Source of the DNA: Acidobacteriota bacterium
GTDB taxonomy: Bacteria > Acidobacteriota > Vicinamibacteria > Vicinamibacterales > CAVVIG01
Assembly: GCA_003222395.1 (NCBI GenBank)
Contig: QHWB01000059.1
Span: forward strand, 1 to 64,000
DNA: 64,000 nucleotides
Direction: 5' to 3'
The notes beneath the pieces are model-generated. The model searched no databases. It was given only the letters and a program-made list of their open reading frames with translations, and had not been told where the DNA came from. The translations under genes were made by a program, and so were the position numbers. Below are positions 49,197 to 52,613 of this stretch, one piece after another. Every line of letters begins with the position of its first letter. The first letter of the stretch is position 1.

Positions 49197-49520
49197 ATGC
49201 CGCTCTGGTCCCTCGACGACTGGAAATACATCGAACGCCGAATCGTGACCGGCGCGAACGGACGCCAGTGGTGCGTCGCGCTGATGGACGTCCTCGGACA
49301 GGAAGGCGATCCCGACATGCCGAGCCTGACGATGGAGCTGCAGTACGCGTCGGGACGGTACTTCACGCTGGTGTATCCGCCAGGCGGATCGCTGCAGTGG
49401 GAGCGCGGCTACGCGTCGCTGCACGACGCACAGGTCGCCTACGAGCGGCTCGTCGCGGCGGTCGCGGATGGACGCCTCGATCCCTCTCAGCCGGTGTTCA
49501 GAGAAGATCTTGAAGATTGA
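49197..49520 (+). CDS. Hypothetical 107-aa protein
   Basis: A soluble protein with strands and one helix. WSLDDWKYIERRIVTGANGRQWCVALMDVLG opens it, and YFTLVYPPGGSLQWERGYASLHDAQVAYERLVA follows. It resembles small unnamed acidobacterial proteins, but I recognise no domain. It is the last gene before a 571-nt non-coding region. Confidence 0.6.
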   Translation: MPLWSLDDWKYIERRIVTGANGRQWCVALMDVLGQEGDPDMPSLTMELQYASGRYFTLVYPPGGSLQWERGYASLHDAQVAYERLVAAVADGRLDPSQPVFREDLED

Positions 49521-49633
49521 CGGCAGCCTAATCCCGCAAGGCGCCGCAAGGCGCTTGCGTTGACGCCCAAGGGGCTGCGCCAATCGGTAGCGCCCTCACG
49601 GCGGCGAGACCGCGTGCAGGCCCCCCTCGCTCA

Positions 49634-49787
49634 GGCGCACCGTTCGACCGTCCGAACAACACACGACGCCAGCAGCTTTATTTCAATCGCTTGTCCACGT
49701 ACGCGGCCGCAGGCTTGCGGCCGCGTCTGGAGGCTGGCGTCGTGTGTTGTAGACGATCGCGGGTTGACGGACGGCTCAAGGTGCGCC
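49634..49787 (+). repeat. Structured element A (154 nt)
   Basis: Nested complementary arms are GGCGCACC (49634-49641) with GGTGCGCC (49780-49787), CCGTCCG (49648-49654) with CGGACGG (49768-49774), a perfect 18-bp stem (49656-49673 with 49733-49750) and an 11-bp inner stem (49701-49711 with 49716-49726). The 18-bp and inner stems are joined by a 27-nt strand on one side and a 6-nt strand on the other. It is matched by element B in inverted orientation. Confidence 0.8.
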
Positions 49788-49872
49788 AGATCGAGGGCGG
49801 CCCGCACGCTCGGACAACGCCTCCGAGGACAGTCACCTCGGCGACGACGAGCGTCGTGGAGCGGCGGCGCGT

Positions 49873-50024
49873 AACGCGCCTTCGAGCCGGCGGTCGACAC
49901 GCGATCGGTCACAACACGCGCCGTCAGCCACCTCACGCGACCGCAATTGCGGTCGCGTACGTGGGTACGCGTTGGAGATAATGCTGCTGACGGCGCGTGT
50001 TGTTCCGACGGCGAGCGGCGCGCC
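49873..50024 (-). repeat. Structured element B (152 nt)
   Basis: It has the same layout as element A, reversed: an 18-bp stem (49911-49928 with 49986-50003), a 24-nt perfect palindrome as inner stem (49935-49958) and internal loops of 6 and 27 nt. Terminal arms AACGCGCC (49873-49880) and GGCGCGCC (50017-50024) pair partly. Stem differences from A are compensated on the opposite arm. Confidence 0.8.
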
Positions 50025-50091
50025 AAGCACCGTCGCTCCACGACGCGGCTCGGATCGCTGCGCTACATGTCAACGCAAGTGACCTCCGGGA

Positions 50092-51105
50092 CTAAAGGGC
50101 CGCGCTACCGGTCGCTGTCATTGCGGGAGAACGACGCTGGCTTCGACGCTCGTCGAGCAGCTTGACCGACGCATAGACCGCGCGCGTCGACGGAATGGAG
50201 ACGCCGAGGCGATCGGCGAGCTCCACGACGGCGCCGACGACGGCTTCGATCTCCATCGGACGTCCCGCCTCGAGATCCTGCAGCATCGACGTCTTGTGCG
50301 CGCCGACTCTCTCCGCGCCGGCCATCCGCTGATCGATCGAGATCGGCAGCTCGATGCCGAGCCTTGCGGCGACGGCTTCCGTCTCCGTCATGATCTCGCG
50401 CACGACGCGCGAGACGTCGGGATGCCGCACCATCTGCTCGAGCGTCGCGCCGGTGAGGGCGCTGATCGGATTGAACGAAACGTTGCCGATCAACTTCACC
50501 CAGATCTCGTGGCCCAAGCGCGTCGTGATCGGGCAGCGGAATCCGGCGGCGATGAGCGCCTCCGCGATCGCCCGCGCGCGCTCTGACCGCGAGCCGTCTG
50601 GCTCGCCGAAAGTGATCCGATTCCCCTCGGTGTGATGGATGACGCCGGGCTCGGCGACGTCGGTCGAGAAGTACGCGAGCGAGCCGACGACGCGGCGCGG
50701 CTCGATGCTCGAGGCGATGACGCCGCCCGGATCGACGCGCTCGAGCCGGAGCCCGTTCAACTCCCCCGGATGATGCTGGAAGTACCACCACGGGATCCCG
50801 TTCTGCGTGCTGACGACCACCGTGTCGGGTCCGAACAGGACGCGCAGCTGCGGGGCGAGCGACGCCAGGCTATGCGCCTTCACGCCGAGAAAGACCACGT
50901 CGGCGGCGCCGATCGATCCCAGATCCCCCGTGACCTCGGGCCGGACCTCGAAGTCGCCGTCGGGGCTGACGACGCGCAGGCCGCGCTCCCGCATGGCGCG
51001 GAGATGCGCGCCGCGTGCGAACAGCACGACGTCGGCGCCAACCCGCGCGAGCCGCGCGCCGATGTATCCGCCGATCGCGCCGGCGCCGGCGATGACGATC
51101 CTCAC
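50092..51105 (-). CDS. Ketopantoate reductase family protein
   Basis: A 337-aa NADP-dependent reductase. GAGAIGGYIGARLA opens the Rossmann domain; VKLIGNVSFNP holds the expected catalytic lysine and asparagine of PanE, and a C-terminal helical domain carries SMLQDLEAGRPMEI. The usual reaction is 2-dehydropantoate to pantoate; paralogs act on other oxoacids. GTG 51105 overlaps the stop of the synthetase gene by 4 nt. Confidence 0.88.
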   Translation of the reverse strand: MRIVIAGAGAIGGYIGARLARVGADVVLFARGAHLRAMRERGLRVVSPDGDFEVRPEVTGDLGSIGAADVVFLGVKAHSLASLAPQLRVLFGPDTVVVSTQNGIPWWYFQHHPGELNGLRLERVDPGGVIASSIEPRRVVGSLAYFSTDVAEPGVIHHTEGNRITFGEPDGSRSERARAIAEALIAAGFRCPITTRLGHEIWVKLIGNVSFNPISALTGATLEQMVRHPDVSRVVREIMTETEAVAARLGIELPISIDQRMAGAERVGAHKTSMLQDLEAGRPMEIEAVVGAVVELADRLGVSIPSTRAVYASVKLLDERRSQRRSPAMTATGSAAL

Positions 51106-52613
51106 GAAGCGTCCTGCGAGTACGCCTCGGCGACCATCCGCCGCTGAATCTTGCCGGTGGCGGTGCGCGGAATTCTTTCGGTGATGTGGATGCGCTTGGG
51201 ACTCTTGAAATCGGCGAGGCGCTCGCGGCAGTGCGCCATCAGCTCCTCTTCGGTCGCGGTGTCGCGGAGGACGACCGCTGCCGCCACTTCCTCGCCCCAT
51301 GTCGCGTGCGGCACGCCGAAGGTGACCGCTTCGGCAACGGCCGGATGCGCCAGCAGCACCTCGTCGATCTCGCGCGGCGCGAACTTCTCGCCGCCGCGGT
51401 TGATCAGCTCCTTGATCCGCGCGACCAGCGTCAGGTAGCCGTCGCGATCGAGAAAGCCTTCGTCGCCCGTCCGGAACCAGCCGTCGAAGAACGCCTGCAC
51501 GTTCGCTTCCGGATTGTTCTCGTAGCCGCGGATGACGTTCGGCCCCTTGATCACGACTTCACCGCGCTGACCGGCGGGCAGCAGATTGCCCTCCTCGTCC
51601 ATGACGCCGACGCTGACGTCGGCCCCGCAGCCGACCGATCCAGCCTTGTGCTCCGACGGCGGCAGCGGATTCGAGGCGATCTGGTGCGCCGCTTCGGTCA
51701 TCCCGTACGCCTCGAGAACCGGCGCGCCGAACGATGCCTCCATCTCGTGCATCACGCGCGGAGGCAGCGACGCGCTGCACGAGCGGATGAAGCGCAGCTT
51801 CTCGCTGCCCGACGGGCGGCCGGCGCCGCGCCGCGCGAGCAGCAGCTGATGCAGCGTCGGGACCGCGGAGAACCACGTGACGCCGTGATCGCGCGCGACG
51901 CGCCAGAACGAGAGCGGATTGAATTTCGGCGGCACGACGAGGGTGCCGCCGGTCGCGAGCGTCGCGAGCATCGACGCGACGAGGCCGTGCACGTGGAACA
52001 GCGGCATGACGCACAGCGACACGTCGTCGGGGCCGAGCGTGTACCAGCGCGCGATGTTGCGCGCCGATATCGACAGATTCGCGTGCGTGAGCGGCACGCG
52101 CTTCGGCCGGCCGGTGCTGCCGCTCGTGTGCAGCACCAGCGCGACGTCGTCTTTGGACGGAATGGAGATCGAGGCGCGGCCGCTCGTTCCCGACAACTGC
52201 ACGATCCCGGTGGGCGCGGCCTCGCCAGTCAGGATGCGGATCCGATTGCCGGCCGCCTTCCTGGCAGCCTCGGCGCCGTCCCGGGGAACGATCAACGTGC
52301 GCGCGCCGGTGTCGTTCAGGTAGAAACGGAATTCTTCTTCGGTGTACGCCGGGTTGAGCGGCGCGGCCGTCCCGGCAACCGATGCCGCGAGAAAGCAGAC
52401 AACCGCCGGCAAGCCGTTCGGGAGCGCGATGCCGACGCGATCGCCGCGCGCGACGCCTGCCGTCGCCAGCGCTTCGGCCAGCGATTCGATCTGGCTCCGG
52501 AGCGAACCATACGTGACGCGGATATCGGTGCCGGGAATGGCGATGGCGGTGTGTCTGTCGGACGTGGGCTGAAGCAGATCGACCAGAACCAACGGTTCGG
52601 ACGACGAGATCAT
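51102..52613 (-). CDS. Acyl-CoA synthetase, oxalate-CoA ligase-like
   Basis: A 503-aa AMP-forming ligase. The P-loop is TSGSTGRPKRV (163-173), with Arg at the usual Gly. The YGMTEA motif and RTATGK with catalytic K488 follow. Blocks such as MPLFHVHGLVAS and TWFSAVPTLHQLLL are characteristic of the plant AAE3/yeast Pcs60 oxalyl-CoA synthetases, so oxalate is a good candidate substrate. A TATAAT box lies 27 nt upstream of the ATG. It is co-transcribed with the ketopantoate-reductase-like gene. Confidence 0.86.
   Translation of the reverse strand: MISSSEPLVLVDLLQPTSDRHTAIAIPGTDIRVTYGSLRSQIESLAEALATAGVARGDRVGIALPNGLPAVVCFLAASVAGTAAPLNPAYTEEEFRFYLNDTGARTLIVPRDGAEAARKAAGNRIRILTGEAAPTGIVQLSGTSGRASISIPSKDDVALVLHTSGSTGRPKRVPLTHANLSISARNIARWYTLGPDDVSLCVMPLFHVHGLVASMLATLATGGTLVVPPKFNPLSFWRVARDHGVTWFSAVPTLHQLLLARRGAGRPSGSEKLRFIRSCSASLPPRVMHEMEASFGAPVLEAYGMTEAAHQIASNPLPPSEHKAGSVGCGADVSVGVMDEEGNLLPAGQRGEVVIKGPNVIRGYENNPEANVQAFFDGWFRTGDEGFLDRDGYLTLVARIKELINRGGEKFAPREIDEVLLAHPAVAEAVTFGVPHATWGEEVAAAVVLRDTATEEELMAHCRERLADFKSPKRIHITERIPRTATGKIQRRMVAEAYSQDAS

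Follow-up and report, generated by a model that had tools for sequence, protein, structure and literature searches.

Two long hairpins in the window, the whole 64,000-nt stretch of DNA analysed here, belong to a 566-bp unit bounded by terminal inverted repeats (49529..50094). The unit has several copies, its pairing is kept as its letters change, and its core is present at some sites and absent from the corresponding sites of related species. We think it rather likely that it represents a dispersed, protein-less palindromic element of the MITE or REP kind, non-autonomous and spread by transposition in trans, whose fold would be kept for recognition.

Architecture, ends and neighbouring genes of the unit

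Hairpins A (49634-49787) and B (49873-50024) were initially described as lying head to head, and all details of that description proved correct on re-checking. The perfect 18-bp stems (49656-49673/49733-49750 in A, 49911-49928/49986-50003 in B) differ from one another at stem positions 8, 11 and 14, and each of these differences is compensated on the opposite arm. The inner stems, of 11 and 12 bp, show a single difference, which is also compensated. In both hairpins the internal strands measure 27 and 6 nt, and the one-sided 27-nt strands (49674..49700 in A, 49959..49985 in B) match at 20 of 27 positions. These extents are real, yet they correspond only to the tops of longer hairpins within the unit. 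Hairpin A covers 198 nt in full (49612..49809) and hairpin B, its inverted copy, 196 nt (49851..50046), with DNA folding z-scores of -9.1 and -8.0, respectively, and no fold as good in 200 dinucleotide shuffles of each. The core, which comprises the 18-bp stem, the inner stem and the long one-sided strand, lies at 49656..49750 on the minus strand in A and at 49911..50003 on the plus strand in B; these cores score 110.1 and 106 bits with R1, a covariance model built with both of them among its sequences. A second, shorter asymmetric strand is present at the foot of core B (49894..49910, plus strand; columns 51-67 of our alignment A2).

The terminal inverted repeats form a pair in the window, the left one, TAATCCCGCAAGG...CTTGCGTTGACG, at 49529..49568 on the plus strand and the right one at 50066..50094 on the minus strand, and the motif of paired ends reads TARTCCCG...TTGCGTTGA. 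A protein-less repeated unit with such ends displays a trait of MITEs. The ends define a wider family, since a 130-bp miniature element on another contig (C64:338922, or 338.9k; L105:8923-9052) carries the terminal repeats of the window unit around a different palindromic interior. As for direct repeats at the ends, proposed in the preliminary description as a mark of mobility, they amount to at most a TA flanking the window copy, with no convincing target-site duplication. A Pfam scan of 30 neighbouring frames returned no transposase family, as expected if the element is non-autonomous, and no autonomous relative with the same ends was found among the terminal-repeat matches or the loci examined. 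The preliminary description had proposed either a selected RNA or DNA structure or a mobile palindrome. The latter is favoured by the dispersal, by the terminal inverted repeats and by a core that is present or absent depending on the species at orthologous sites, although neither a transposase nor a clear target-site duplication accompanies them in these searches.

It had also been stated that no coding gene explains the region. This holds for A and B but not for the right end of the unit, whose outer TAG is the stop codon of panE, a ketopantoate reductase ORF that converges on the unit (50092..51300, minus strand; Pfam ApbA 8.5e-30, ApbA_C 1.8e-33). On the other side, a 107-aa ORF without a Pfam match (49197..49520, plus strand) terminates 8 nt short of the unit. 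With panE included, a long frame takes its stop codon from a unit end in three instances (window 50092-50094, L107:4949 and L031:1502). They come from seven ends retrieved with a pattern in which a terminal stop triplet is compulsory; both unit ends of the C94 copy fall outside this pattern, and a 156-codon frame at C71 was left unjudged. Of the two frames other than panE, one has 947 codons (...RISF) and stops in this way at C64:369.9k; the other, by eye an MsrB gene, has its stop codon on C4 in a unit end represented by a lone terminal repeat. These unit ends coincide with stop codons as if the latter were the insertion target.

A crude codon-based gene caller was applied to 15 sites and placed five between converging genes and three between co-directional ones (G026a, G026b and G016), with seven unclear; because the caller miscalled panE, these counts are not rates. 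The converging sites at the window, C64:335k, C64:152k and G024:C117 lie 6-26 nt from the stops by the set site limits, panE aside. At G024:C12, also converging, the left frame overlaps the outer arm and the right gene is 75 nt away. Pfam matches back both gene neighbours of C64:335k, C64:152k and G024:C12, and a single neighbour in the case of the window and of G024:C117.

Copies, sites without the core and exchanged cores

The covariance-model search proposed in the preliminary description did find homologues, and these keep their stems, so the idea of a maintained structure stands. R1, a model of the 95-nt core, was built from 15 cores, and most of the places that it matched were part of its input, so that its scores are not independent. 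It locates 10 core places in this genome (nine strong, and a weak one on C15) and eight in a second genus, g17, where they are spread over three genomes: one in G016, five in G024, of which one is partial, and two in G026. Cores are thus present in 4 of the 27 genomes of the family. For the order, stricter filters were used; 4 of 162 genomes bear the core, and none was detected in the other 158.

Whole, interrupted or truncated forms of the unit occur at C71:180766, C94:181230 and C64:369812. The first matches the window at 92-93% over 461-499 bp, including the whole 461-nt query, and the flanks do not match. A DNA search of the same genome identified C71:168531 as A plus part of B, and the copy at C64:335.8k appears by eye to be A joined to B by a deletion. 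Further pieces of the unit are found on C111 and C15, and end fragments at C34 (a truncated unit end) and C64:369.8k. The copies compared by DNA are 72-94% identical to the window, and given these values and the low copy number, recent movement is not demonstrated.

When 84,980 species genomes, a set that may omit the records of the window's own genome, were scanned with one pattern, six stretches matched, all within three MAGs, of which two bear the title Acidobacteria and one Terriglobia. Plasmids and phages gave no matches (distant blastn, E 1e-5), nor did IMG/VR viral contigs with the exact pattern, and the literature searched contains no description of this element. Among ten loci inspected for weak arm matches in other genomes of the family, one, L072 on G017:C28, seems to be a genuine pair of homologous arms around a minimal core of ~19 nt. 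The other nine were discarded as coding or unrelated DNA by eye, and L202 (G024:C234) looks like coding DNA as well.

Flanks were sought in relatives for seven of the eight g17 places, the partial copy G024:C509 being left out. For all seven, at least one relative has one or both flanks aligned and no core match; both flanks align in one relative at some of these sites only, so part of the absences could reflect rearrangement or loss. At the site of G026b, the relative G016 (C55) has the arms without the core, CAGGT being joined to TGTTCG at the junction. A 2-nt GT repeat at the ends would allow deletion by slippage there. Conversely, the site of the G016 copy contains in G026 a short stretch that resembles one outer arm, perhaps a remnant. 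At a separate locus of G026 (L095:3126-4663, contig C95), a 251-aa ORF lies between two inverted hairpins, and the orthologous stretch of G016:C55 is much shorter and devoid of the ORF. We considered this ORF (L095:3463-4218) as a transposase candidate and rejected it: it has no Pfam match and resembles a nucleotidyltransferase by eye.

In two copies the top of a hairpin has been swapped for a palindromic family, denoted family C, which is present there as an inverted pair of ~85-nt units: hairpin A at C94 and hairpin B at C64:152k (C64:151999). The junction seen at C94 recurs in the truncated copy at C64:369.8k. Family C has matches in 14 of the 27 genomes of the family (E 0.001; this genome included, some matches weak) and none in G016, G024 and G026, with up to 29 candidates scored per genome, which suggests that its entry into A and B is probably derived in this lineage. 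In this genome, 96 matches to family C merge into 50 places, or 40 if joined within ~200 nt (loci L036-L065 and L219-L238). The unit, of ~85 nt, comprises two stem-loops often followed by AAGAAAATG, and some units are in tandem at ~70-79 nt. Within 24 nt downstream of 12 of the 29 parsed units is an ATG that opens a frame of at least 60 codons; on the other side, any start codon allowed, this is the case for 5 of 29. One gene downstream of family C codes for an asparagine synthase according to Pfam. Family C looks like a dispersed 5' leader or a mobile promoter.

Upkeep of the pairing and competing explanations

Alignment A2 and the covariation count include 15 of the 18 core places, without the C64:335.8k fusion and the partial copies C15 and G024:C509. 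Over 56 pairs, 95.5% of the cells pair, and 30 pairs show compensated changes, both partners being altered. Covariation scores 0.402 here, compared with 0.165 in shuffles, and none of 500 shuffles reaches it, a count that is not a probability because the sequences are related; the structure was taken from the same alignment, which favours it. As a control, partners slid by 1-3 columns pair at only 26-45%. The outer helix stands out, with 21 of its 25 pairs covarying. Between this genome and g17, the outer arms have identities of 0.42-0.47, for 0.38 in the flanks, 0.84 in the core stem, 0.63 in the inner stem and 0.62-0.63 in the one-sided strands. Within g17, the one-sided strands reach 0.84-0.86, versus 0.64-0.66 for the outer arms. 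The pairing of the outer arms has outlived their sequence. Conservation of the one-sided strands exceeds that of these arms but not that of the inner stem. The idea that the g17 arms are unrelated palindromes into which the core inserted was rejected, as most of them share their length, align and covary.

Covarying helices such as those in A2 are also what a structured RNA family would show. The selected function might then be that of a structured RNA, or of a hairpin at mRNA 3' ends involved in terminating or protecting transcripts, with dispersal as a secondary matter; we consider this possible but unlikely. The compensated changes, the better conservation of the one-sided strands relative to the outer arms between genera and the location of 5 of 15 copies between converging genes are all consistent with it. 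In addition, a consensus scan of 49450-50200 revealed two terminator-like sites where 0.3 are expected, with weak 5-pair stems in the right arms of the hairpins. The same type of scan detected no sigma-70-like promoter in this interval, however, and no Rfam family matches the window at the gathering score (best weak E 0.17). Wobble pairs in the outer helix lean towards RNA, with 18 G.U and 8 A.C cells in 14 copies, but the asymmetry is not significant (two-sided p ~0.08, with non-independent cells) and does not decide between action as RNA or as DNA. G026a, whose outer helix is misaligned in A2, was dropped from this wobble count and retained in the covariation count. Other features argue against an RNA or terminator function: relatives differ in the presence of the core, A and B have opposite orientations within one unit, and 3 of 15 copies were called between co-directional genes.

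The main neutral explanation is that the palindromic repeat is decaying, that template switching during replication alone keeps its arms complementary and that its fold is not under selection. Template switching can create and maintain stems, as reported in PMC8794818, and outer arms that are nearly without sequence similarity and yet complementary are in keeping with such a process. We nevertheless regard it as doubtful that this process accounts for the element. The foot, ACAACA/TGTTGT, is almost invariant, and the 27/6 asymmetry has been kept although copying from arm to arm should erode it. The conservation of the one-sided strands beyond that of the outer arms also argues against it, if not beyond that of the inner stem (0.63) or the core stem (0.84). 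By eye, copies differ from each other at scattered individual pairs and not in blocks, which does not separate selection from template switching.

Integron attC sites, whose outer paired motifs are RYYYAAC and GTTRRRY, are likewise imperfect hairpins with one-sided unpaired bases, and the exchange of the hairpin core is reminiscent of site-specific recombination, but the outer pair of these motifs is found in 0 of 15 copies, which makes this explanation most improbable.

Returning to the mobile palindromic element, its probable mode of spread can be outlined. A putative transposase acting in trans would drive transposition by recognising the terminal repeats, the folded hairpins (single-stranded, most plausibly) or both. 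Insertion would take place beside genes, often at their 3' ends and sometimes exactly at the stop codon. Recognition would require folding, and the pairing would be preserved for that reason, possibly with the help of arm-to-arm copying in replication. From the one-sided strands the protein would read the orientation of the hairpin. The present copies would be old and partly decayed, some cores having been lost or exchanged for another hairpin. A bolder and, judging from the sequences, improbable version is that of a transposable element recognised by its shape, with a one-sided recognition strand, an exchangeable core and insertion at stop codons such that the element ends the gene. If this were true, base pairing rather than sequence would be what the outer arms inherit. 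The element is a clear natural example of pairing that outlasts sequence in long stems, with full, core-less, minimal-core and core-replaced copies. It should allow tests of whether selection or template switching maintains palindromes in bacterial genomes, and of the way in which palindromic repeats that encode no protein spread in a phylum that has received little study.

Relation to known mobile repeats

MITEs such as Correia/NEMIS, ERIC and YPAL are small, protein-less and intergenic, with terminal inverted repeats or long imperfect palindromes. Our element is similarly small, protein-less and intergenic, with terminal inverted repeats. It differs from them by its nested layers, its two inverted inner hairpins, its sequence-variable but covarying arms and its exchangeable core, and no parent insertion sequence was found among the matches and loci examined.

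The TIRs of TIRtrons are repeated, some of them self-complementary, are arranged in dimers or clusters and flank a tyrosine transposase gene; they are described in Acidobacteria such as Koribacter (PMC3733652). The element shares with them repeated terminal inverted repeats and the phylum, a name that two of the three relatives from the pattern scan carry in their titles. Unlike TIRtrons as portrayed there, it has no tyrosine transposase among the 30 neighbouring frames scanned.

REPs and REPINs are dispersed extragenic palindromes, often in inverted pairs, located 3' of genes or between converging genes and thought to be moved in trans by RAYT proteins, according to PMC3116915 and PMC3733652. 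The latter also mentions some REP dimers inside other palindromes, and for REP, CGTC-REP and TIRtron repeats a comparable spread is thought to occur, or no mover is known (PMC3733652, PMC3116915). Our element resembles REPs and REPINs in being dispersed and palindromic, with an inverted hairpin pair, and in its location downstream of genes and, for some copies, between converging genes. In contrast, its hairpins measure ~197 nt (196-198), for 20-40 nt in the REPs described there, and the GTAG foot tag is missing: 13 of 15 hairpins have no GTAG, and the other two have one each, at different places. CGTC-tagged REPs have their tag at the foot of an 8-9 bp stem, whereas 12 of 15 copies of our element have a CGTC inside the middle layer, ~19 nt ahead of the core; it is missing from three B copies of this genome. 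Finally, the element is not located beside the one RAYT-type gene (PF01797, Y1) found in this genome. That gene is flanked by a GTAG-type repeat of its own, and no A or B core is present in the locus (L101). A RAYT link of A and B in this genome was rejected on these grounds, the repeat array adjoining the gene being unrelated to them. The gene itself (G000:C106:58500-59640; L101:2500-3640) lies within a dense GTAG repeat array (GTAGCGCGAGCCTTTCAGGCGAGC), an arrangement reminiscent of REPtrons.
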